Shown here: piece by piece, positions 33,040 through 45,769 of the stretch
Layout of the letters: each line of letters starts with the position of its first letter
How positions within the stretch are numbered: the stretch's first letter is position 1
Assembly (NCBI GenBank): GCA_947507875.1
Contig: CANNQP010000003.1
Coordinates: 62,001 to 126,000, forward strand
DNA length: 64,000 bases
Direction: 5' to 3'
Source of the DNA: Verrucomicrobiaceae bacterium
GTDB lineage: Bacteria > Verrucomicrobiota > Verrucomicrobiia > Verrucomicrobiales > Verrucomicrobiaceae
Notes under the pieces: generated by a model
What the model was told of the DNA's origin: nothing
Seen by the model: the letters and a program-made list of their open reading frames with translations, nothing else
The model's database searches: none
Program-made: the position numbers and the translations under genes

Positions 33040-33879
33040 TTAGAAGCGCCAAAGCAGCCCCAGGTGCAAGGTCAAGTCTGGGGCCGAAGGCGTAAGTCCA
33101 GCGCCGAAACCAATCCGCAGCGCAAAACCGCCCGGCAAACCGACCATGCTCGTTAGCAAGAGTTGCTGAGCGCTGTTTCTCTCTTCGAAATCACCCGTCG
33201 CCTCCACCCCGAGCGAAAAATCATGATTCACCTCATGGCGTAGACCTACGGCATAACCCCAGCCAGGACTCCCTCCATCGCCTGATACAAAGCTAACTAA
33301 ATTTGCTACTAGCTTTGTATTTTCTTCAACATCAGCCTCGAGGATAAGTCGGCTATGCCAGCCGCTTTCTCCATGACGATGAATGCCCCCGTGCGAACCG
33401 TGACGGTATCCACCTGAACCATGATCATGAATGATCGGTGGGGGTGCGTCAGGGCCTGTGCCGGGATCATGAACGTGCACAGAGCCATTTCCATGAGCGT
33501 GGCCAGCTCTTTCCGCAAATTCATAAGCCGTCCAAAGGCCTGCACGAAAGTTGAATGGCCCAGAAGGCACAGGCAGAGCCAGCAGCCACTGGGGCGTGAT
33601 GCCCTTGTAGCGCCAACCTTCCCCTTCATCGGAAAAGCCAACATTGAGGCCAAAAGCGAGCGCCGGAGCCAAGCCAATGAAGAAGCCAGGTTCTGTCGAA
33701 AACTCATTTGCCGAACCCTCACGGGAATATTCCACTCCCGTGAGAGCAACACCGCCGAAGCCGGAAGGAATGGCACTATCCTGAACTAGGATGAAGTCCC
33801 GCCCATGGTGGCCATGGACAGGACAAAATCCAAAGAACAGCAGGCAGGCTATCAGCCTACGCAAGAGGCGGGAGGACAT
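33040..33879 (-). CDS. His-rich outer-membrane barrel protein
   Basis: 279 residues. Signal peptide ends near GHHGRDF, so the mature protein begins with His-His. The body reads as beta strands with Gly and aromatics and ends LLWRF, a typical last barrel strand. One loop of about 55 residues (roughly 125-180) has over a dozen His in HxH and HGxxH patterns (HAHGNGSVHVHD, IIHDHGSGGYRHGSHGGIHRHG), a probable metal-binding loop facing outside. It is the last gene of the operon starting at 44795 and lies 34 nt after the Trp-repeat protein, so a role in copper capture or passage is inferred. Zinc or nickel are alternatives. Confidence 0.78.
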   Translation of the reverse strand: MSSRLLRRLIACLLFFGFCPVHGHHGRDFILVQDSAIPSGFGGVALTGVEYSREGSANEFSTEPGFFIGLAPALAFGLNVGFSDEGEGWRYKGITPQWLLALPVPSGPFNFRAGLWTAYEFAERAGHAHGNGSVHVHDPGTGPDAPPPIIHDHGSGGYRHGSHGGIHRHGESGWHSRLILEADVEENTKLVANLVSFVSGDGGSPGWGYAVGLRHEVNHDFSLGVEATGDFEERNSAQQLLLTSMVGLPGGFALRIGFGAGLTPSAPDLTLHLGLLWRF

Positions 33880-33913
33880 CTCAGGCAGTGGTGTTCAGAC
33901 CTCGGGATCTGCC

Positions 33914-36900
33914 TCAATCATTGGCAGACAAGATCAAAGATGCATCGCCAGAGATGAGGCTGACCGGCAATTCGCCAGGAAAGGTATTCATCAGGAAGAA
34001 ACCAAACCCTTTCACAGCTGAGCCATCCTGCACCAAAACGCCTTGATACTTGGCTCTACGCGTAACCCGTGAACCGGTAGCCTCACGCACCTGAAAGCCA
34101 CCCTCATACAGCCCACTATTGCGAGTGAGAGCGAGGCTGACTCGGCAAGGATTCCGCGTAAAACTACCCGCACCAGTGGAAGTCAGACGCCCTTCCACGC
34201 TAGGTTGATTTTCACTAAACTCCAGCTGCGCATGATCAAAGCTAACAGCAACGCGATCCTGACCCGTGAGGCTAGGTCGCGGGCCGCCAATCACGCGTAG
34301 TTGCGCAGGGCCAAAGCCAGCTGGGTAGCTGGTGTCCAAAGCCCTGGGTATGCGTGGCAAGCGATACCAGTCGGCACTCGAATCCTCTAAACTACGCCCA
34401 AGAGCTTGATGAATAAAAAAACGCGCCATGAAGGAGCCCGACCGTTCCATACGCTGACGTGGCAGTTCCCTTCCCTGACGTGGAATGACCCCCACCTGAG
34501 TGAAAAGGATCTGAAGGACACCGAAACCGCCATCCTGCTCAACCGGTGCCGATTGGGTGATGGCGTTACCATCTGCGAGCTTCAACGTGATGGATGCATT
34601 CCCTACCGCACTAACAGTAAAGGAAGCAAAACCGTGACCTTCTGGCAAAGAAACGCTCTCGTCGAGATCATCCCGTTGCGTCTGAAGAGCCAAGGTGTAG
34701 TCGCCACGGTAGGGTGCCGTCAGCAGAACCCGACTGAGCGCGGAAAAAGTTAGCTCATTTAGGCTATCGGATACCCTACCCTCTACCACACGACGTGCCG
34801 TATCGTAACTCAAGCTAAGCACGAGTGGCGCACGACCTGAACGCGGAATTTGCACCTGAGCGCCAGGGCCACTTGGGCTAAAAGAGAACCGACCCACCAG
34901 GCGATGACGCTCGGCACCCAGCTGCATTTGGCCACTCAACAAACCCAAAGGAGTAATGCTGATATCGACAAGACCACCAAGGTTTTCATTCAGAGCCACC
35001 GAGCGTTTCAGGAGCCCGGTGAAGCGACCAGCCATGCCTGCCGGCAAGGGATCAATCGCCAATGAGTCTACAAGAACCTCTGAAGTTCCTGCTGCATTTG
35101 ATACGCTCAAACGCAGAGGAAAAACACCTGCAGCGGTAGGGATGCCCGAGATAACACCTGTGGCAGCGTGAACACTCAATCCAGCAGGCAGCCTACCCTC
35201 GACACGCAACGTCGCCGGAAGCATCATGACCGGCACTTCAACGCGATAGGGCTGACCAATGATTCCTGGTGGAAGATCAAAGCCAGGCTCAATCTCTGGA
35301 GGTATAATGACTCTCACCGACGCCTGCATACTATCCACATGACCAATCGGGTTCCTAACACGCACGTGATAGCGACCAGAGTCACTGGCTGATGCAGCGG
35401 AGACCATGAGCGTACGTCCCGTCTCTGCACGCAGGATAGCACCGTCTTTGAACCATTGATACTGTAGTTCAGCGCCTGTCGCAGAGACTGCGAGGCGGAT
35501 GGGACGTCCTGCAATCATCATGTTGCCATTTGGCTGAGAGGTAATTCGGGGCGAAGAGCCTACCACCGGGGCTCGACCCTGGAAGGTCGCTTTAAAGCCC
35601 TGACGATTGGGGTTCGTCGCTGGGGCGTTGCTACCGATGACAAGCGTGTAAAAGCCAGGCTCAAGTGTCCAGGAACGCGTCACCGTGCTCTCGGTGCTGT
35701 TGTCGAGATGATCGAGATAGCTCAGGTCTTCCGCCCAGCCGACATTGCCTCGGTTGTTGTAGGTGTGGTCATCGCTGCCATCGTTATCCCACCCACGCCA
35801 CAGGGTGAAGCTGGGGAACATGCTGCTTGTATCGGCTTTGCGATTGGCATCGGAAGGAGACGGCCAGGGAACGGTCGCATCACGCTCGATCGTCAGATCC
35901 AAAGTCATGGCCGCTGGAATGTAAATCGCGACCCAGCGTGAGGTGTGTGTCCAGCCAACCGGAGCATCGCCCGCGCTGGCATCAAACAACGCATTGTCTT
36001 CCCAGCTCCAAGCTCCGACGTGATCACTGAAACTGCGCTCTGCACCATTGGGTTGTCCGACATAGACTAGATTATAGCCAATGCCACCCGTCGCAGGTCC
36101 TTCTTCAGGGTAGGTGTTGGCCACAGGATCACCATGCGTGTCACCAGGAAGTGCACGACGCACGTCATAGGTGAATTTGAAACCCTGACGGTTTGGATTC
36201 GTGGCGGGTGCATTGCTGCCAAGAACCAAGGTGTAGTCACCCGCAGGTAGGCGCCAAGTGCGGGTGATGGCGGTTTCCGTGCTGTTGTCAATGTGATCCA
36301 GGTATGACAACGCAGGAGCCCAGGGCAGACGCCCGCGGTTGTTGTAGGTGTGGTCATCGCTGCCCGTGTTCTGCCAGCCACGCCAAAGCGTCAGGCTGGG
36401 GAACATGCTGCTCGTGTCAGCCTTGCGGTTAGGATCTGTGCCGCTCGGCCAGGGGACGTTGGCATCGCGCTCCATCGTGACAGTGAAAAAGACGGTCTCA
36501 TCCAGACCCACAGCCAACCATTTGGAAGTGTGTGTCCAGCCGACCGGGGGCTCACCTGCACTGGCATCAAAGAGAGCATTGTCTTCCCAACTCCAAGCAC
36601 CGACATGATCCGAAAAGCTGCCATAATCCCCATTGCCTGCGATCAAAGTGCGCGCGTAGCCCACTCCCCCGGTGGCAGGAGTATTTTCAGGATAAGTGTT
36701 CGGCACGGGATCGACATCATCATTTCGTGTCATATCCAAGGTCACGCGAAAGCCCTGGCGATTGGGATTGGTGGCCGGCGCATTGCTGCCGAGCGCGAGT
36801 GTGTAGTCTCCAGCGGGTAAGATGTAGGTGCGCGTGATGGTCGTCTGGGTGCTGTTGTCCAGGTGATCGCGGTAGGTGATATCCTCCGCCCAGGCCACAT

Positions 36901-37897
36901 TGCCTCGGTTGTTGTAGGTGTGGCTGTCTGTGCCGTCGTTGTCCCAGCCATTCCAAATCGTGAAGCTCGGGAACATGCTGCTCGTGTCGGCCAGTCGGTC
37001 AGGCGCATTCGAAGAAGGCCATGGCACCGTCGCATCGCGTTCCATCGTGACCGTCACAAAGGCACGGCGCGTGAGTCGCATCGCTACCCAGCGCGAGGTA
37101 TGAGTCCAGCCGACGGGTTCCGTGCCTTGGTTGGGATTGCCGAACAAAGCATTGTCCTCCCAACTCCAAGAGCCAACGTGGTTGGAGAAAGCCATCCGGT
37201 CGCTGCCATCCGTGACGACGGTGTGGGCATAGCCGATGCCGCCTGTCTGAAGATCCACGGGCAACTGGGCACTCGTGCTCAACGTGCATTTGAAGCCTTG
37301 ACGATTCGCGTTCGTCGCGGGTGCATTGCTGCCGAGCGCGAGCGTGTAGTTACCCGCTGGCAAGATGTAGGTGCGCGTGATGGTCTCCTGAGTGCTATTG
37401 TCCAAGTGATCGCGGTAGGTGATGTCCTCCGCCCAGGCCACATTGCCTCGGTTGTTGTAGGTGTGGCTGTCTGTGCCGTCGTTGTCCCAGCCATTCCAAA
37501 TCGTGAAGCTCGGGAACATGCTGCTCGTGTCGGCCAGTCGGTCAGGCGCAGTCGAAGAAGGCCACGGCACCGTCGCATCGCGTTCCATTTTGATCGTGAG
37601 CAAGACAGGCTTTTGCAGGCTCAAAGCCACCCAGCGAGAGGTATGCGTCCAGCCGACGGGTTCCGTGCCTTGATTGGGATTGCCGAACAAAGCATTGTCC
37701 TCCCAACTCCAGGAGCCAACGTGGTTGGAAAAAACGGCTTGGTCCCCAGCAGCGCCAAGGCTGACGGTGTAGGCGTAGCCAATGCCACCAGCTTGAGGGT
37801 CAGTGGCGCTGACGGTGGCCGCGTGGCCTTTCAGCGGAAGGAGTGCGGCGGCCAAAAGGGAGACTAGCCCTTGGGCAGCATGGTTGAGGTATCTCAT
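33914..37897 (-). CDS. Secreted protein with four Trp/His-rich repeats, Ig and putative-Ig domains; MopE/CorA-like candidate
   Basis: 1327 residues with a signal peptide ending near GHAAT. Four tandem repeats of 170-190 residues (37-218, 219-409, 410-603, 604-772) each have 8-9 Trp and four invariant His in N/DHVG, GWTHTS, HTYNNRG and DHLDNS (DHIDNS in the third). An Ig-like domain (about 780-862), a putative-Ig domain (863-945) and a long C-terminal domain follow; the last is shared with the neighbour at 37970-42346. From memory, MopE binds Cu(I) with a kynurenine made from Trp130 plus His132 and His203. Each repeat here has the same Trp-x-His (83/85, 264/266, 454/456, 649/651) and a His 60 residues later (145, 326, 516, 711). 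I infer four copper sites on a surface protein. Kynurenine formation is not shown. Confidence 0.7.
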   Translation of the reverse strand: MRYLNHAAQGLVSLLAAALLPLKGHAATVSATDPQAGGIGYAYTVSLGAAGDQAVFSNHVGSWSWEDNALFGNPNQGTEPVGWTHTSRWVALSLQKPVLLTIKMERDATVPWPSSTAPDRLADTSSMFPSFTIWNGWDNDGTDSHTYNNRGNVAWAEDITYRDHLDNSTQETITRTYILPAGNYTLALGSNAPATNANRQGFKCTLSTSAQLPVDLQTGGIGYAHTVVTDGSDRMAFSNHVGSWSWEDNALFGNPNQGTEPVGWTHTSRWVAMRLTRRAFVTVTMERDATVPWPSSNAPDRLADTSSMFPSFTIWNGWDNDGTDSHTYNNRGNVAWAEDITYRDHLDNSTQTTITRTYILPAGDYTLALGSNAPATNPNRQGFRVTLDMTRNDDVDPVPNTYPENTPATGGVGYARTLIAGNGDYGSFSDHVGAWSWEDNALFDASAGEPPVGWTHTSKWLAVGLDETVFFTVTMERDANVPWPSGTDPNRKADTSSMFPSLTLWRGWQNTGSDDHTYNNRGRLPWAPALSYLDHIDNSTETAITRTWRLPAGDYTLVLGSNAPATNPNRQGFKFTYDVRRALPGDTHGDPVANTYPEEGPATGGIGYNLVYVGQPNGAERSFSDHVGAWSWEDNALFDASAGDAPVGWTHTSRWVAIYIPAAMTLDLTIERDATVPWPSPSDANRKADTSSMFPSFTLWRGWDNDGSDDHTYNNRGNVGWAEDLSYLDHLDNSTESTVTRSWTLEPGFYTLVIGSNAPATNPNRQGFKATFQGRAPVVGSSPRITSQPNGNMMIAGRPIRLAVSATGAELQYQWFKDGAILRAETGRTLMVSAASASDSGRYHVRVRNPIGHVDSMQASVRVIIPPEIEPGFDLPPGIIGQPYRVEVPVMMLPATLRVEGRLPAGLSVHAATGVISGIPTAAGVFPLRLSVSNAAGTSEVLVDSLAIDPLPAGMAGRFTGLLKRSVALNENLGGLVDISITPLGLLSGQMQLGAERHRLVGRFSFSPSGPGAQVQIPRSGRAPLVLSLSYDTARRVVEGRVSDSLNELTFSALSRVLLTAPYRGDYTLALQTQRDDLDESVSLPEGHGFASFTVSAVGNASITLKLADGNAITQSAPVEQDGGFGVLQILFTQVGVIPRQGRELPRQRMERSGSFMARFFIHQALGRSLEDSSADWYRLPRIPRALDTSYPAGFGPAQLRVIGGPRPSLTGQDRVAVSFDHAQLEFSENQPSVEGRLTSTGAGSFTRNPCRVSLALTRNSGLYEGGFQVREATGSRVTRRAKYQGVLVQDGSAVKGFGFFLMNTFPGELPVSLISGDASLILSAND
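35582..37789 (-). repeat. Four tandem coding repeats of about 510-580 bp
   Basis: Repeat units map to about 37244-37789, 36671-37243, 36089-36670 and 35582-36088, coding for residues 37-772 of the protein. Units 1 and 2 share a 126-bp identical stretch (36882-37007 equals 37425-37550, offset 543 bp), which points to recent duplication or gene conversion. Units 3 and 4 are more diverged but keep all four His and the GWTHTS motif. Confidence 0.9.
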
Positions 37898-37969
37898 TTC
37901 AGTATCTTCGTGTCTTGGGGGTGGAGGGTTCAGCCAGTGAAAAGGTGGGGAAAAAGCAGCGCGCGAGAC

Positions 37970-40900
37970 TCAGGGCTGCCCGCTCAATTCGACACGACCC
38001 GAGAGTTGGCGCGTCGTCGTCGGGGTCGTTCTTGGGGGGCCTGCTGTGGGCATTTCTGCAAGGTTGAAAAAGCCATAACCGCGCGGACCACGACCATCAT
38101 CGACGATCATGCCTGCGAAGGTTGTATTGCGCGTCAGATCTCGGGGCGTCGTGCCGCTTGTGTCACGATCCACCAGCAGGAATTGGCCACGGAACGCACC
38201 CGTGACACCCGGAGTGAAGGAGGTGCCACTGCCCGGAGTCACCGTGATTTTGACCGACCCTGGATTCGGGCTGATGGCCGGAACCCGCGCCGGACTACCG
38301 CTCTGAATCTCAAAGGCCGAAAGATCGAGCCTCGTTTCAGGACTTGGCGCTCCTCCCTCGCGGAAGATGAGGCGTGCATTGCCGGCTCCGGCAGACAACC
38401 CCATGGCCCGCGAGGTGGCGGCAGGGATCACATAGCGCCTACCGAAGGTTTCCAGCGCAGTGACCTCGATGCCACTTTTGTAGCTACGTGTGGTAGAACT
38501 CGTGGCTTGCGGACGCTTGAACCAGCTCAGGCTCGTCGAGGCTAACGAAAAGCTTGCTGAACTATCGATCTGGAGCGCACCCAAGAGCGAACCTGTATTC
38601 GAGTAAAGAAGCTGAAACAAGGGCAGCCGCCCCCCCTGACGTAGAGGCCCGGAAAGCGTGATAGCAGAGCTTCCATCGGCCAACCAAAGCACTCCTGAAA
38701 CCGCACCAGTCGTGCTTACCCGAAACGCACCGACGCTGTAACCCTGGGGCAACTCCGGCTTTGCGCGATCCACGTCAGAGAGTACAGAGGCAAAGGTGTA
38801 ATTCCCCGCCAAACCCGCAGGCACGGCCTCTGGCAGATGAGCAGCCAAAGGAAGCTGCACCGTCAATCGCGCCGAAGGGTTCGCTGGATCTGGAATGGTT
38901 GTTTCCAACTGACCCGACAACGCACGACTCGCACGCTGGAGCGTGAAACTCAGGGTCAATGCCGCTAGCGGCGAACGCCGGGGAATCGTGACCGTGCCAG
39001 TCGGATCAGCATCCGGCTGCACAATCAATTTTCCAGAGAAGGCATGAGAGACTGTGCCCAGGTAAAGTGTGCCGCTGAAGGCACCGAGGCTGGTCGTGGT
39101 CAGGGTGAGGCGTCCACCCAGATTTCCATTCACCTCCGTCGATTCATGACGCGGCACCACCCCCTGGAAGCTGCCTAACGCTCCCGAAGGGAAAGGCGAA
39201 ACAACAAGATTTTGCAGCCAAGGGAAGCCCGTGCCGTTGGCATTCGTCGCACGCACCCGCACGGGATAACCGGGGGCTGCCCGTGCGGTGGTGGGTCGGC
39301 CAGAAATCACGCCGGTAGCGGCATTCAGCGTTAGGCCAGGTGGCAGATCTGTCGCTGAAAAACGGGTCGGACTGTGACTGGCGCTGACCTGGGCCCGATA
39401 GTCCTGCCCAACAATCGGTTGAGGCAAATTGAGCGGATTCATCACTGGCCAAGGCAGGATGGTAAGCAGGGCGGGATTGCTAGTCACACTCGATGTCGCG
39501 TTGTAAACGCGCACGGTGTAGGTGCCTTCGGTCAGAGGTGAAGCACCGATGACCGTGTGGCTGGAGCGAGTCGCACCGGGGATCGGTTGATCGTTGCGCC
39601 GCCACTCGTATTGCAGGCCGGTGCCTGTCGCTGTGACGCTAAAACTGGCATTGGCCCCCTGCTTCACGGTCACAGGGGCCGGATGCCGAGTGATCTCAGG
39701 TGCCGGAGTCACGGTCACTGCTGCCGCCTGGCTGGTGACACTGCCCTGACTGGTGGTGATGACCACCGTGTAGCTGCCTGCATCTTGAGATGCGATGGGG
39801 GAAAGGCGTAGTTCAGGTGAATTGGTTCCCACAAGAGTTGTGCCACGACGCCACTGATAACTTTGACCGATGCCATCCGCGACGACACTCAGCACCACTT
39901 CGGCACCAGGGAGCACCGTGGCCCCCACGGGTTGCCTGCGGATGATGGCCTTGCCATTGACGAGACCAGGATTGGGATCGCTGCGATCTAGGAAACCATC
40001 TTCATCTTCATCTCCACCCAAACGCTCGCCTGCACCGGGTAGCACGCCCATGAAGGCTAACCAATCGCCTGCATTGAGCGAATTCAGCAAAGCTGCGCGT
40101 GTGACGATTCCCTGCGTGGACTGATCCCAGCGATAACCCGTCTGTGTTCCTCGCACCCATCGCAGCGAACGAAACTCCCCGCCGACCTTGCCTCGAACGA
40201 TCAAGTCGCTGTCTCGATTTTTCGCCAGATCCTCTGTGGTCTCGGCTTCCAGCAGAGCAAGCTCCGCGAGGACGGTGGGATCGGTGCGATTTGCTGAAGT
40301 GACGACTCGACTGTAACCCACGATGGGAGCCGTGCCGGTGTCAAAGCTGCGCATGAAGGCTGACACATCCGCAAACTCCTGAGGCGTTTCCAAGAGATCA
40401 AGCACGTAGGGATGCACGATGGGCAGCTCAAACCCAACCCCGTCATGCAACATGCCGAAACCACTGAGAGACTGCGCCCCTGCCCGACCATTGTAAGTGA
40501 GACGCTGGTAAATGGTGCGTAGGGGCGGATTCTTCACCGGTTGGCTCAGCCCAGACTCCTGAGGCAGGTCGATGTTGTTGTTCGAACCCAGCGGGTGGGT
40601 GTGACACGTGATGCAGTGGCTTTTCACATGGCTATTGAAAAGAGCCACGCCCTCCTGGGGTCTAGAGCCATCCGAGAGTGTGGCGCGCAGAGTGCGATCC
40701 AAATTTCGATTTGGATTCGCGTGATGGACGATCGATTTCAGATAATCTGCCAGATTATCCATGTCCGTCGCATCGAGTTCTTCACCCCCCATCAGCAAGT
40801 CAAAGGTGCTGTTGAAGCTCTGCAATGTGGGTCGATCCCCGCGCCAGTGAAAGGGCGCGCCATCCTGCATGCCGCGAAGCGTCTGGGTGACCATGGGCCC

Positions 40901-42346
40901 TTTCATCGGGTGCAGGGAGTAGGGGCGTAGGGTCGAGTCATGGACGGATAGGTTTTGACCAAAAACGGTCATCATCTCGCCACCAGGATCACCGAGATCC
41001 CAGGCCATGCCGTCGCGGTCTGCATCAATGTGACAGGTGCCGCAGGAGGCCGTGCCATTCCCAGAGAGTCGCGCATCAAACAAGTAACCTCGACCTTCGC
41101 GAATGAGTCGCGGCATGGGATCATAGGCCGCCAGCGGCACCTCATCCACGACAGCAGCGGTGTCCGTGCGAATCACAGACAGACTACTGGAGAGCTTATT
41201 CAGCACATAAAGTCGCTGACGCGTCTCATCCAGCACGAGGCCACGGGGGCCACGCATGCGCGCCGCACTGGTGTCTGTGCCGGTGCGCACATCCACCCGG
41301 GAAAGCACCGCCGCCGTTTCCGGGTCCACTTGGGCGATACGGTCCGAGGCAAAGGCAGCCACCCAGAGTGTCGTGCCATCGGCACTGAAGGCGAGGCTGG
41401 TGGGCTGAGCGAGCGCGGTGGCACGAGCCGTAGGATTTGGCAGGATGCTGTAGTCGATGCCGGCATTCAAATCATGCGGGTGCACTCCCTCTGCATCAAT
41501 CACCGTGAGGCGGTTGTCGGCAAAATGACCGCGCAGGGCTGGCTCAAACTGAATCAGGTTCAGAGCTTCCGTGTTGCTCACCCAAATTTCATTTTGTCCA
41601 GGACGGCAAGCCACATCAAACAGGTTCGTGCCGACATCAGAGATCATGCGCAGGACGGTATCGGTGGAGGTATCCACCTCAGCCACGTCATGATCGAGGA
41701 TCGTGTTCGTCACGCGGGGATCGCTGGCGGGCACGATCAGAGCTGTGTCCGGCGGCACAGGTAGAGCGGGATTGGTCGGCTCAGGTTGCGGTGGTGCGAC
41801 CTCTTTGGGCAGCACGGTCGTGCGATTCCCGGATAACAAAAAGGCTGCGTAGAGGCGCGTGCCATCCGCATTCGCGGCCAGGGCGTGGGGATAGACTCCA
41901 TTCAGGGAGATCGAGCCGACCTGCGCTCGTGTGGTGGGATCATAGACCCGAACCTGGGCGTCCCGAGCACAGCTGACGTAAGCTTTTCCTGCCGCAAAAA
42001 CAACGTCTGAAGGTTCATCGCCCGTGCGGATCGTATCCACCACAGCCTGGCTGGAAAGACTGAGGATGGAGATGGAATCACTCACCTCATTGATGACCCA
42101 GACTTCATCGTTGCTGCGTGCCCGCACCGTCACGGGCTCTAGCCCCACGGGGATATGACCGAGTCGCACAGGGGTGCCAGAGCTGAGGTCAAAGACGGCC
42201 ACCCGCGCGCTCGGCGAGTCCACGGCCACCAGCCGCGTGCCATCGGGGGTCATGGTCAAAGGATGCACCTGACGTGCCTCAAAGTGCTGCCATGCAGCAT
42301 TGGCCATGGTGGCCCAGAGTAGAAAGGATGCGGTCCAGAAGTTCAT
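37970..42346 (-). CDS. Secreted beta-propeller/di-heme MauG-like protein with Ig domains
   Basis: 1458 residues with a signal peptide to about residue 17. Residues 20-410 form a YVTN-type beta-propeller. Residues about 415-670 resemble the di-heme peroxidase/MauG class: GYLFDARLSGNGTASCGTCH (heme site 435-439), FHWRGDRPTLQSF, then HCITCH (578-582) and KNPPLRTIYQRL. An acidic Ca-site-like stretch (GGDEDEDGFLDRSDP, about 778-792) follows, then two Ig-like domains, a putative-Ig domain and a C-terminal domain like that of the repeat protein downstream. MauG relatives MbnH and the CorA/MopE partners oxidise Trp in a neighbour. The repeat protein 72 nt downstream is the obvious candidate substrate. 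Distal heme ligands were not identified. A surface electron-transfer role is the alternative. Confidence 0.8.
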   Translation of the reverse strand: MNFWTASFLLWATMANAAWQHFEARQVHPLTMTPDGTRLVAVDSPSARVAVFDLSSGTPVRLGHIPVGLEPVTVRARSNDEVWVINEVSDSISILSLSSQAVVDTIRTGDEPSDVVFAAGKAYVSCARDAQVRVYDPTTRAQVGSISLNGVYPHALAANADGTRLYAAFLLSGNRTTVLPKEVAPPQPEPTNPALPVPPDTALIVPASDPRVTNTILDHDVAEVDTSTDTVLRMISDVGTNLFDVACRPGQNEIWVSNTEALNLIQFEPALRGHFADNRLTVIDAEGVHPHDLNAGIDYSILPNPTARATALAQPTSLAFSADGTTLWVAAFASDRIAQVDPETAAVLSRVDVRTGTDTSAARMRGPRGLVLDETRQRLYVLNKLSSSLSVIRTDTAAVVDEVPLAAYDPMPRLIREGRGYLFDARLSGNGTASCGTCHIDADRDGMAWDLGDPGGEMMTVFGQNLSVHDSTLRPYSLHPMKGPMVTQTLRGMQDGAPFHWRGDRPTLQSFNSTFDLLMGGEELDATDMDNLADYLKSIVHHANPNRNLDRTLRATLSDGSRPQEGVALFNSHVKSHCITCHTHPLGSNNNIDLPQESGLSQPVKNPPLRTIYQRLTYNGRAGAQSLSGFGMLHDGVGFELPIVHPYVLDLLETPQEFADVSAFMRSFDTGTAPIVGYSRVVTSANRTDPTVLAELALLEAETTEDLAKNRDSDLIVRGKVGGEFRSLRWVRGTQTGYRWDQSTQGIVTRAALLNSLNAGDWLAFMGVLPGAGERLGGDEDEDGFLDRSDPNPGLVNGKAIIRRQPVGATVLPGAEVVLSVVADGIGQSYQWRRGTTLVGTNSPELRLSPIASQDAGSYTVVITTSQGSVTSQAAAVTVTPAPEITRHPAPVTVKQGANASFSVTATGTGLQYEWRRNDQPIPGATRSSHTVIGASPLTEGTYTVRVYNATSSVTSNPALLTILPWPVMNPLNLPQPIVGQDYRAQVSASHSPTRFSATDLPPGLTLNAATGVISGRPTTARAAPGYPVRVRATNANGTGFPWLQNLVVSPFPSGALGSFQGVVPRHESTEVNGNLGGRLTLTTTSLGAFSGTLYLGTVSHAFSGKLIVQPDADPTGTVTIPRRSPLAALTLSFTLQRASRALSGQLETTIPDPANPSARLTVQLPLAAHLPEAVPAGLAGNYTFASVLSDVDRAKPELPQGYSVGAFRVSTTGAVSGVLWLADGSSAITLSGPLRQGGRLPLFQLLYSNTGSLLGALQIDSSASFSLASTSLSWFKRPQATSSTTRSYKSGIEVTALETFGRRYVIPAATSRAMGLSAGAGNARLIFREGGAPSPETRLDLSAFEIQSGSPARVPAISPNPGSVKITVTPGSGTSFTPGVTGAFRGQFLLVDRDTSGTTPRDLTRNTTFAGMIVDDGRGPRGYGFFNLAEMPTAGPPRTTPTTTRQLSGRVELSGQP

Positions 42347-42352
42347 GGCAGG

Positions 42353-42658
42353 TCAGCCTTTGACTAGGTTGAGCGATCGAATGTTGTATATCTTTGCCTG
42401 ATCTCCCAGCGCTTGAGTCGCTTGCTGAAGGGTCAGAGGTTTTTTCGAAAGAATCTGCAGACGGGGAAGCCCGCCTGCCTTTGACGAGAGAATTTTCACC
42501 GAGTGCACGCCCTCAATCTTCATCATGGCGGCTTTCACGTGGCTGGAGCAGGCACTGCAAAAGATACCCGCGACTTCGCCTTCGTAAGTCTTTGCCGGTT
42601 CCGCTGCCCAAGCGCTGGCAAGGATCAGGATGAGGCAGAAATGGATGAGTCGTGTCAT
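42353..42658 (-). CDS. Secreted heavy-metal-associated (HMA) domain protein
   Basis: 101 residues with a signal peptide to about residue 19 (ASAWA). The HMA ferredoxin-like fold is seen with the metal-binding Cys34 and Cys37 in GIFCSACSSHVKAAM, then the VHSVKI strand. It should bind Cu(I) or another soft metal in the periplasm and hand it on. It starts 9 nt after the SCO1 stop and ends 6 nt before the di-heme gene, so it is within one transcript. Export of an HMA protein is less common than cytoplasmic CopZ and fits periplasmic copper delivery. Confidence 0.88.
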   Translation of the reverse strand: MTRLIHFCLILILASAWAAEPAKTYEGEVAGIFCSACSSHVKAAMMKIEGVHSVKILSSKAGGLPRLQILSKKPLTLQQATQALGDQAKIYNIRSLNLVKG

Positions 42659-42667
42659 GGAAAAAAG

Positions 42668-43375
42668 TCAGGAATGTTCATCGCCCAGCAGCTGGTGGAC
42701 ATGCTCGTGGAGACGTTCGGCCATGAGTTTAGCAACTTCCGGTTGAGGATGGAAGACCGCATAATAGCCGCGGACGCGTCCCTGACCGTCGATCAGGGCG
42801 ATGCGCAGGTCGTGCTCATAGAGGTCGTCCGGAGTGATGCGCTCCTCTTCGGGGATTGGCTTCGCTGCCGTCATGCCGAGCTGCTCGGTCATGAAATCCC
42901 ACAGTTTTTGCCGTTCCCCCGTCACGAACCACCACGGCGAATTGTCCCGAGCTCCGACCGCTTCAGCGTAGGCTTTCAGCAAGGCCACGTTGTCACGCTC
43001 AGGTTGAATGGCGACGGAAAGCAGCTGGATGCCAGGATGCGTCGCGAACTCTTCGTTCAGCTTTTGCAGCTGAGCCGTCACCGCAGCGCAACCGTGCGGA
43101 CACTGGGTGTAGAGGTATGCCGCGACCACCACCTTGCCTTTCAGGTCTGAAAAATGCACCGTTTGACCGCTGCGCTCCGTGGCTTGCAGATCCTCTTTCA
43201 CGGTAGCAAAGACGGGCAACTCCGCCTTGGGTAGTGCCTGCTGCAAAAAGCGGCTGTAAGCCCAACTCAGTGCCACAATGATCATGATGAATCCGCCCAT
43301 CAGCAGCCAGAAGCGCAGCGGATTGAAGGGCGCTGGGGCTTCGGCAGGTGATGGAAGAGGGGGCGTCATGGCCAT
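42668..43375 (-). CDS. SCO1/SenC-type copper chaperone
   Basis: 235 residues. An N-terminal membrane anchor (about 20-40) is followed by a thioredoxin-like SCO domain. Copper ligands are Cys92 and Cys96 in YLYTQCPHGCAAV (CxxxC; the usual second Pro of CPxxCP is absent) and His188 in DLYEHDLRIALID. SCO proteins deliver copper to the CuA site of cytochrome oxidase or act as thiol-disulfide helpers. No oxidase genes are here, but a cytochrome c, an HMA protein and a di-heme protein are in the same operon, so copper supply to this locus is likely. An ATG 6 nt inside (43369) is also possible. Confidence 0.92.
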   Translation of the reverse strand: MAMTPPLPSPAEAPAPFNPLRFWLLMGGFIMIIVALSWAYSRFLQQALPKAELPVFATVKEDLQATERSGQTVHFSDLKGKVVVAAYLYTQCPHGCAAVTAQLQKLNEEFATHPGIQLLSVAIQPERDNVALLKAYAEAVGARDNSPWWFVTGERQKLWDFMTEQLGMTAAKPIPEEERITPDDLYEHDLRIALIDGQGRVRGYYAVFHPQPEVAKLMAERLHEHVHQLLGDEHS

Positions 43376-43393
43376 GATGAGATCTAGGGGAAG

Positions 43394-43609
43394 CTAGTGT
43401 ATACGCTTTGACAATTCCTCCAAGGTCCTGGGATTCGTGGGTTGGTCCGCATCCACTGGCAAAAGGGCTTCGGGCACGATGACGCCCGTGACCCTAGCCC
43501 GTGGAGCCTCAAGCAGCGCATGCTGCCATCGACTCAGCCAGCCTCTTCCGCCCCGTGCGGCTTGGCTCCGCAATGGGACGAAAACAAAATGAAACAGACC
43601 TCTGGTCAT
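43394..43609 (-). CDS. Small hypothetical protein, translationally coupled
   Basis: 71 residues. The start ATG overlaps the cytochrome c stop (ATGA at 43606-43609) and the stop lies 18 nt before the SCO1 start, so it fills the gap in the operon, the main reason for the call. The N-terminus is hydrophobic (GLFHFVFVPL) and the middle is Arg-rich. No Cys, no metal motif and no known family. If not real, the gap would be a 230-bp spacer. Medium to low confidence. Confidence 0.5.
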   Translation of the reverse strand: MTRGLFHFVFVPLRSQAARGGRGWLSRWQHALLEAPRARVTGVIVPEALLPVDADQPTNPRTLEELSKRIH

Positions 43610-44091
43610 GGTTGGGTTAGCGTTACAGGGATTTTCTCCAGTTCAGCCTCCGTCCACATGGCCGTGCGGGCTTTTTCCGCTTCGCGGATGGCTTTGACTT
43701 GGTCAGTAGCTACAGAGGGGGCCTGATTGCCAAAGCTATTCCGCACGTAGGTCAGCACGGCTGCGATTTGTTCGTCGTTCAGCGTGGTGCCCTGGGCAGG
43801 CATGAGCGGGGCAGGGGTGTTGAAAGGCTGGCCATTCAGTTGGATGGGCCCGGTCAGTCCGTGCAGAACCATGCGGATGAGTCGATCCGGCTTGGGAGCG
43901 GCCACCCAATCCGATGACGCTAGAGAGGGAAACATGTTAGGCAATCCGAGGCCCGTGGGTTGGTGGCAGGCAAAGCAGACCTGCATGTAAACTTGCTGAC
44001 CTTTGGCCATCTGCTCAGCAGAGGGTGCTTCTGCCAAAAGTTGAGTGCTGGCAGTGAGTGCGAGAAAAAGTGGAACGGAAAAACGAGGCAT
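43606..44091 (-). CDS. Secreted cytochrome c
   Basis: 161 residues from the ATG at 44091, with a signal peptide to about residue 20. Heme c site CFACH at residues 39-43, then GLPNMFPSLASSDW and a likely axial Met in APLMPAQG before the final helix LNDEQIAAVLTYVRNSFG. It is a class I cytochrome of the kind that feeds copper or di-heme enzymes. A C-terminal extension rich in charges follows. It lies upstream of the SCO1, HMA and di-heme genes and probably supplies or accepts electrons for the di-heme protein. The gap of 281 bp to the DUF2946 gene may hold a promoter. Confidence 0.93.
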   Translation of the reverse strand: MPRFSVPLFLALTASTQLLAEAPSAEQMAKGQQVYMQVCFACHQPTGLGLPNMFPSLASSDWVAAPKPDRLIRMVLHGLTGPIQLNGQPFNTPAPLMPAQGTTLNDEQIAAVLTYVRNSFGNQAPSVATDQVKAIREAEKARTAMWTEAELEKIPVTLTQP

Positions 44092-44372
44092 AAAAACGGC
44101 GCGAAGGCCCAGAATAAGGGATGAGAGAAAGGGTGGGATGGAATCGCCCCCATCCAGAAACGGCTGGATGGGGACGCCCGGCAAAGAGGGCGGCACTGGC
44201 TGTAACCGCCTCCCATGTCATGCCGGGAAAGCGGTGCGCTGGCAGTCTTTCGACTCTTCAGGCTTTAGCAGGTGTTCATCGAGCCAGCGCGCCACGAAAT
44301 GATGACACGAAACGATTGAGCATCATTTCAGGAGCACGGATTCAGGACCTGCGAAGACCTAGCAGAGACTGC

Positions 44373-44795
44373 TCAGCAGGCGAACTGGGGCGGTGGCGTC
44401 TCAGGCTGTTCCCGTCGGTTCACCGCGACTTCATGGGCCGTCGGCCAGGAGTGCGTTTGTTTTTTGGGGAAAGCAAATTGGGGAATCCAGACGAGAGCCA
44501 GGGTCAGCTTCAGGTCGTGATCCTTGCCCACAGGAGCATTGGGCGAGTTATCTTCCTGATTGCTAGCATCCATGCCTTTTTTCACGGCATTGCAGAGTGG
44601 GCAGGGGTGCTCCCCATCAAAGGTTTTGCTTACCGCTTCAGCCAGGCTGTCCTGCTGGGAGAACTTGATCATCATGCCTGTCCAGGCGATACCCTGAAGC
44701 ACAACCCACTGGAGGCCCACCGAAAGGCAAAGCGCCAGCACGACCGCCCGACGCGCCAAGCGCAGCAAGGATGGGCTGACGTGGGTGAGACTCAT
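44373..44795 (-). CDS. DUF2946-like membrane/periplasmic protein
   Basis: 140 residues. An N-terminal hydrophobic helix (about 17-36) is followed by a periplasmic segment with Cys65 and Cys68 in GEHPCPLCNAVKKG, the pattern I associate with DUF2946-type proteins, and a Pro-rich C-terminus ending in Cys. These proteins are often found beside copper or cobalt uptake and cytochrome genes. It is the first minus-strand gene of the copper/cytochrome block and is divergent from the OmpR-type regulator at 45029. The family is assigned by motif, role unknown. Confidence 0.65.
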   Translation of the reverse strand: MSLTHVSPSLLRLARRAVVLALCLSVGLQWVVLQGIAWTGMMIKFSQQDSLAEAVSKTFDGEHPCPLCNAVKKGMDASNQEDNSPNAPVGKDHDLKLTLALVWIPQFAFPKKQTHSWPTAHEVAVNRREQPETPPPQFAC

Positions 44796-45028: not shown

Positions 45029-45769
45029 ATGCCTCCCGAAATAAATCCCCATTCAGATGGTAAAACGCATGTGCTCGTCATTGACGACGATCGCAAGCTC
45101 GCTGCCCTCATCCGCGACTACCTGACGCCGTTGGGCTATGGGGTGGAGCTAGAACACACGGGACCTGAAGGGGCCGAGCGCGCGCTCAGTGGCCACTGGC
45201 ATGCTGTGATCCTGGATGTGATGCTGCCCGGCTGCGATGGGTTTGAAGTGCTGCGTCGCATCCGCGCGAAGTCTGCCGTGCCCATCCTGATGCTGACCGC
45301 GCGGGGAGAAGAGGCCGATCGCATCGTGGGCCTGGAGATCGGCGCGGACGATTACCTACCCAAGACCTTTTCCACCCGTGAGCTGCTGGCCCGACTGCGC
45401 GCAGTAACACGGCGCTCAGGCATCGCCCAAACCACAGGCACGGAGCCTCCGGTAAAAGAACTGATCGTGGGCACGGTGCGTCTGAATCTGGACGCGCGGA
45501 TCGCCACGCAAAACGATCAAATGCTCGTCCTCACCCCGGTGGAGTTTGACATCCTGACTGCACTGATGAAGTCACGTGGACGGATCAAGTCGCGCGAATC
45601 ACTGATCGAAAGCCTACGCGACCGACAGTACGAAGTCTTTGATCGCAGCGTGGATGTGCACGTGGCTGCGCTGCGGAAAAAGCTAGGCGATGATGCCCAT
45701 CAGCCACGCTACATCCGCACCGTGCGTAGCGCTGGTTACATGTTCATCAATCCTGATGCGCCAGGCTGA
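45029..45769 (+). CDS. OmpR-family response regulator, orphan
   Basis: 246 residues. Receiver domain: acidic pocket IDDD (about 18-21), phospho-acceptor Asp63 in VILDVMLPG, Lys112 in YLPKTFS. The winged helix of the OmpR/CpxR type follows from about residue 150 (LTPVEFDILTALMKSRGRI, then SVDVHVAALRKKLGDD and RTVRSAGYMF). There is no histidine kinase gene beside it. The DUF2946-led copper/cytochrome block starts 233 bp away on the other strand, so it may be the controller, like CusR or CpxR in other bacteria. That link is inference from position. Confidence 0.92.
   Translation: MPPEINPHSDGKTHVLVIDDDRKLAALIRDYLTPLGYGVELEHTGPEGAERALSGHWHAVILDVMLPGCDGFEVLRRIRAKSAVPILMLTARGEEADRIVGLEIGADDYLPKTFSTRELLARLRAVTRRSGIAQTTGTEPPVKELIVGTVRLNLDARIATQNDQMLVLTPVEFDILTALMKSRGRIKSRESLIESLRDRQYEVFDRSVDVHVAALRKKLGDDAHQPRYIRTVRSAGYMFINPDAPG

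Follow-up and report, generated by a model that had tools for sequence, protein, structure and literature searches.

Does the copper chemistry of CorA and MopE, so far described within the copper supply of methanotrophs, also operate in bacteria in which no methane or ammonia monooxygenase is detected? The question is raised by a stretch of 64,000 nucleotides from a Verrucomicrobiaceae draft genome (contig CANNQP010000003.1, positions 62,001 to 126,000; hereafter the window; genome of 4.4 Mb in 95 contigs, 93% complete). An operon on its minus strand, at window positions 33040–44795, encodes a protein with four CorA-like repeats (1327 residues, 33914–37897) and, in the adjoining gene, a protein that combines a β-propeller with a di-heme domain (1458 residues, 37970–42346) and is a candidate maturation enzyme. 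All operon features given below lie on the minus strand. This rare form of copper chemistry is probably not confined to methane and ammonia oxidisers, because a four-domain protein and a di-heme partner occur here in a genome without a detected gene for either monooxygenase.

The repeat protein begins with a signal-peptide-like segment, as judged by eye, and is probably secreted. Its four CorA-like domains, of approximately 190 residues each, are followed by Ig and He_PIG domains and a C-terminal module (33995–35542; Pfam matches and alignment). Repeat 1 comprises residues 34–215 (37253–37798; alignment and AlphaFold2 model), and repeats 2, 3 and 4, delimited by alignment, comprise residues 216–406 (36680–37252), 407–600 (36098–36679) and 601–785 (35543–36097), with 81%, 62% and 62% identity to repeat 1, respectively. 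Each repeat contains GWTHTS and an [SD]HTYNNRG motif (SHTYNN or DHTYNN), and the Trp plus two-His set postulated in the original prediction is present in all four copies: W83, H85 and H145; W264, H266 and H326; W454, H456 and H516; and W649, H651 and H711, the last placed by alignment register. The four-site arrangement is correct for the window protein; its relatives carry between one and four site-bearing repeats.

It is practically certain that these domains are genuine relatives of CorA. The whole repeat protein matches the MopE/CorA Pfam family PF18252 with hmmscan (41 bits, cut-off 27), although a PF18252 profile search of its own genome missed it; three single-domain relatives from nitrifiers and a methanotroph remain below the cut-off (17.7–23.3 bits), and locus L036 gave no match. 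Genome searches were therefore made with a profile of 80 CorA-like domains that includes nitrifiers and methanotrophs (the A3 profile). Compared with the Protein Data Bank (PDB), this profile retrieves CorA (E-value of 0.0027) and MopE (0.0034) and nothing else below 0.01, and aligns the W-T-H of the repeats with CorA residues 62–64. A single-sequence PDB search with the repeat protein returned mostly Ig domains, with neither CorA nor MopE. The AlphaFold2 model of repeat 1 (predicted local distance difference test score of 92.9) has CorA and MopE* as its two best structural matches, well ahead of the others, at 14–20% identity in the structural alignments. The homology claimed from the letters of the sequence is thus upheld by both the sensitive profile search and the predicted fold of a single repeat.

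The copper ligands of CorA are Kyn62, His64 and, as the third, His114, according to PMC3912023. Conservation of the corresponding positions (repeat 1 numbering) was assessed in 336 domains from the window protein and 109 homologues, after exclusion of 79 short matches from 415. W83 and H85 are each kept in 334 of these domains, H145 in 328 and H164 in 335; W83, H85 and H145 are jointly kept in 328. Of the set of 80 domains, 77 retain W83 and H85, 76 retain H145 and 66 retain H164, and the whole triad is present in 24 of the 25 rows from outside the Verrucomicrobiota. Domains that lack W-x-H also lack H145 (two of two and three of three in the larger and smaller sets, respectively); these five rows represent four distinct sequences from two lineages, as two are nearly identical. 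Loss of H145 alone is seen in 6 of 334 and 1 of 77 domains. The distant His was assigned by conservation and co-loss, with no direct alignment to CorA His114, and H145 rather than H164 was selected as the putative third ligand because it disappears together with W-x-H. H164 was rejected: it is retained in all five rows without W-x-H, and Asn takes its place in 11 of the 25 non-Verrucomicrobiota rows, all of them with W-x-H intact. Judged from these alignments, the co-loss pattern of W83, H85 and H145 fits a metal site. Some of the relatives retrieved by way of the di-heme gene differ in the middle residue (GWTH, GWGH, GWRH and GWVH), with W and H constant.

Departures from the full site occur in several arrangements. 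In P0008, P0042, P0046, P0051 and P0088, Asp replaces the distant His in a single repeat (hit number 2), which keeps W-x-H. A second CorA-like gene lies directly 3′ of the first at L040 (8648–9142), L043 (7594–8088) and L062 (11195–11689); in L040 and L043 it is a site-free tandem paralogue from which W-x-H and the distant His have disappeared jointly, and the L062 copy likewise has no GWTHTS. At L021 (1–3700), a two-repeat CorA-like gene directly follows that of a small CPLC protein, and its second repeat is without all three ligands. L141, in genome G251, encodes a pair of HISYxGRN sandwich proteins that lack the copper site, 3′ of a small TFDGEHPCNMC protein; to judge from short matches, many multi-repeat homologues probably have a site-free sandwich of this kind as their N-terminal domain. 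Repeats whose three ligands vanished together provide natural negative controls.

The adjoining protein has a YVTN-type β-propeller at residues 1–400 (41147–42346; PDB sequence matches) and a di-heme domain at residues 402–680 (40307–41143), with haem motifs CGTCH (435–439) and CITCH (578–582). The best PDB sequence match of the propeller is the surface layer protein 1l0q (E-value of 4e-17), followed by hydrazine synthase β (5c2v chain B, 2e-5); a specific likeness to hydrazine synthase β was rejected, as other YVTN propellers score equally or better. The di-heme domain is structurally most similar to hydrazine synthase γ and is also close to peroxidases. Both CxxCH motifs are invariant in 156 aligned sequences, the window protein included, as are H479, W501, H645 and Y647; of these, Y647 and W501 might be the counterparts of the axial Tyr and inter-haem Trp of MauG. 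The propeller and the two haem motifs of the original description stand; on the MauG model the protein scores 16.5 bits (cut-off 443.85). The further suggestion of a CorB/SACCP- or MbnH-type partner did not survive. A profile comparison with the CorB-like proteins encoded at nitrifier and methanotroph loci aligns 52 columns at 48% probability; the MbnH model (TIGR04039) gives 19.8 bits (cut-off 362.85) over residues 416–442 only; and none of the eight operon proteins matches the MbnP models. The repeat protein and the di-heme protein also share a C-terminal module (residues 733–1301 and 842–1427, respectively; 30% identity over 617 columns, E-value of 9e-52).

The predicted link between repeat protein and di-heme protein holds well beyond the window. 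A scan of genome contigs yielded 65 loci, 43 from Verrucomicrobiota and 22 from Nitrospira, Nitrosomonas, a beta-proteobacterium, two Methylococcaceae and one deltaproteobacterium. Each of the 34 Verrucomicrobiota loci in which 2.5 kb or more of sequence is available upstream of the CorA-like gene has a propeller/di-heme frame there, with two CxxCH motifs at a spacing of 141–154. The remaining nine start at a contig end: L004 and L029 retain the end of the di-heme gene, L009, L023 and L024 retain a match to its C-terminal module, L005, L022 and L032 have almost no DNA upstream, and L021 has a barrel and a CPLC protein in place of the di-heme gene, which runs against the rule. From the di-heme side, 27 of 32 matches were examined with their surroundings (the window and four fragments or weak matches were excluded; genomes partly overlap). 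A CorA-like domain with W-x-H lies near the di-heme gene in 23 of them; L111 and L114 have a contig edge beside that gene, and at L115 and L126 no such domain was found nearby. Among 112 genomes of the order, 26 have both genes, 82 neither, three the di-heme gene alone and one a partial CorA-like match alone. The genetic partnership is near-obligate. In P0109, the sole fusion among 280 proteins tested, propeller, di-heme domain and one CorA-like domain (GWTHTS) form a single chain.

Within the genus of the window's host, four genomes have both genes and 19 have neither, and this patchy distribution suggests loss or transfer; G112, of the same genus, also carries the locus. The A3 profile matched 6 of 288 genomes of the phylum, with fewer candidates scored per genome. 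One of these, G251 (2.6 Mb, weak matches), was considered as a possible methanotroph of the Verrucomicrobiota; it has no PmoA/AmoA, and its sandwich proteins are without W-x-H.

Outside the Verrucomicrobiota, a different di-heme frame lies near the CorA-like gene in 19 of the 22 loci, the other three being contigs of 3.1–7.3 kb. These CorB-like frames are 623–876 residues long with a CxxCH spacing of 332–353, whereas the window partner has a β-propeller and a spacing of 143; the seven that were scanned with the MbnH model reach 77–122 bits, compared with 19.8 bits for the di-heme protein of the window. In an unrooted tree of the domains, the Verrucomicrobiota rows all fall on the same side of a branch supported at 100/99. 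From the differing spacing, the MbnH scores, profiles that barely align and the split in the tree it follows that in nitrifiers and methanotrophs the CorA-type protein is accompanied by one di-heme family, and in Verrucomicrobiota by another, which there occupies the place of CorB.

A search for PmoA/AmoA (PF02461) gave no match in any of 18 Verrucomicrobiota genomes, the window's own draft genome among them, in line with the absence of a methane monooxygenase noted for the window. The family is present in 8 of 13 other genomes; the five without it may be incomplete bins. COX2 is present in all 14 genomes tested, eight with the module and six without; NosZ (TIGR04246) is present in two of the 14, the window's genome not among them. 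Five Nitrospira loci (L048, L063, L065, L066 and L067), from genomes with AmoA, have two or three CorA-like genes (one of those in L063 weak) and two CorB-like di-heme genes each. A literature search returned no paper on comammox and MopE and none on Cu_bind_CorA; homologues in ammonia oxidisers may appear in a figure of PMC6189053.

The operon comprises eight open reading frames (ORFs), confirmed at the coordinates given here, with intergenic spacings, in coordinate order, of 34, 72, 6, 9, 18, −4 and 176 nucleotides; six of the seven are below 75, in line with the tight packing first described. Transcription would begin with a small protein (44373–44795) that carries the motif TFDGEHPCPLC, common to many relatives. 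It belongs to no Pfam family, and its earlier label, DUF2946, is rejected, as neither it nor eight homologues gave a Pfam match at an E-value of 1 or less. It is followed by a mono-haem cytochrome c (43606–44196; CFACH; Pfam 48.9 bits, cut-off 21.3), a 71-residue ORF (43394–43609) and the copper chaperone SCO1/SenC (42668–43375; CPHGC; 62.8 bits, cut-off 22.8), both named genes being confirmed. The 71-residue ORF, previously listed as a small protein, may not be a gene, because tblastn of the 65 loci found no relative at an E-value of 1e-4 or less. Next is an HMA-type metallochaperone-like protein (42353–42658), in which the CSAC motif is present and the Pfam score is slightly below the cut-off (23.1 against 24.8 bits). 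The propeller/di-heme and four-repeat proteins follow, and the last gene encodes a putative outer-membrane barrel (33040–33879). Its richness in His (17 residues) is clear; the barrel fold is plausible and unproved, given a C-terminal LLWRF and an OMP_b-brl match with an E-value of 0.16 (0.0086 in one homologue, none in another).

Among the 43 Verrucomicrobiota loci, several of them incomplete, relatives of the CPLC protein are present in 32 and of the barrel in 27, as against nine with SCO1, HMA and cytochrome c together. The core of the module is therefore the CPLC, di-heme, CorA-like and barrel proteins, and the chaperones and cytochrome c look optional. An OmpR-type response regulator (45029–45769) is divergent from the operon; it was dismissed as a conserved regulator, as tblastn of the collected loci gave no match at an E-value of 1e-10.

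We favour, with moderate confidence, a reading in which the operon encodes a four-domain Cu(I) protein whose Trp residues are converted to kynurenine by the neighbouring di-heme protein. Both proteins would be exported and surface-located, as suggested by their signal-like N termini, their common C-terminal module and the putative barrel encoded by the last gene. The di-heme protein would act by oxidising the Trp in every GWTHTS, as is proposed for SACCP/CorB (PMC3912023). With two His and the kynurenine as ligands, a single Cu(I) would then be bound per domain, giving four Cu(I) per chain, and copper captured at the cell surface would pass to the His-rich barrel and, in hosts that have them, to HMA and SCO1, with copper enzymes such as a haem-copper oxidase (COX2 is encoded in the genome) as final recipients. 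The repeats very probably bind Cu(I), and it is equally probable that the repeat protein is the target of the di-heme protein; that the product would be kynurenine is reasonably likely.

Several observations weigh against this reading. The kynurenine nitrogen of CorA is 2.9 Å from copper and is termed a second-sphere ligand, and growth on methane persisted in a strain that lacks the CorB-type gene (both PMC3912023); the di-heme domain is nearest to hydrazine synthase γ and peroxidases; and a propeller joined to a di-heme domain recalls a hydrazine synthase β–γ fusion (52.6 bits). Cu(I) could accordingly be bound by the two His only, with an unmodified second-sphere Trp and a di-heme protein that acts in electron transfer or as a peroxidase, to reduce, oxidise or protect the copper, and makes no kynurenine. 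We regard this as unlikely, since the Trp is conserved as strictly as the nearer His and, where it is missing, both His are missing too, and recombinant CorA from Escherichia coli contained no copper (PMC3912023). The resemblance to hydrazine synthase, together with the C-terminal module common to both proteins, could instead indicate a small-molecule enzyme with the CorA-like protein as an accessory copper or binding subunit. This appears quite improbable: the scores on NF052340, NF052341 and NF052342 are far below their cut-offs (59.1 against 560, 17.1 against 625 and 52.6 against 1250 bits; the α subunit was not searched for), and SCO1, HMA and the His-rich barrel point to copper.

A further explanation concerns the role and overlaps with the others: the four-site chain could be a copper sponge for detoxification at the cell surface. 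Four sites on one probably exported chain, the His-rich barrel and the patchy presence in the genus favour sequestration, but one Cu(I) per domain of some 190 residues is a small capacity, and CorA and MopE are copper-repressed (PMC3912023). Detoxification is thus a rather doubtful function, and acquisition or storage is the role towards which we incline.

Relative to known systems, the new elements are a site multiplied in one chain, another di-heme protein, and a host among the Verrucomicrobiota without detected PmoA/AmoA. We tentatively suggest, at somewhat less than even chance, a second and separate class of maturase: propeller proteins with a hydrazine-synthase-γ-like di-heme domain that, in Verrucomicrobiota lacking a copper monooxygenase, would form as many as four Cu(I)–kynurenine sites on a single surface protein of several domains (in P0109, on a domain of the same chain), so that a CorA-type substrate would be served by two di-heme families in two deep branches. 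If the di-heme protein makes kynurenines, it would be a second, independent enzyme–substrate pair for the origin of kynurenine in CorA and MopE, and P0109 would be a one-chain version of enzyme and substrate, directly expressible and testable.

CorA of Methylomicrobium album BG8 (PDB entry 4bz4) and MopE* of Methylococcus capsulatus Bath (2vov) share the fold and site of the repeats; the window protein differs in having four domains per chain, fused to Ig and He_PIG modules, a different di-heme partner and a host without a detected copper monooxygenase. With CorB/SACCP the likeness is a c-type di-heme protein encoded beside a CorA-type gene. MauG is probably of the same superfamily as the window di-heme protein, which has the two c-type haem motifs. 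MbnH reportedly forms kynurenine in MbnP. This pair, also a di-heme protein with a partner, is known near methanobactin operons (PMC3621798), whereas the window operon has no MbnP match and a low MbnH score. From hydrazine synthase γ and β (PDB entry 5c2v), finally, the window protein is set apart by scores far below the family cut-offs and by a partner that is CorA-like.

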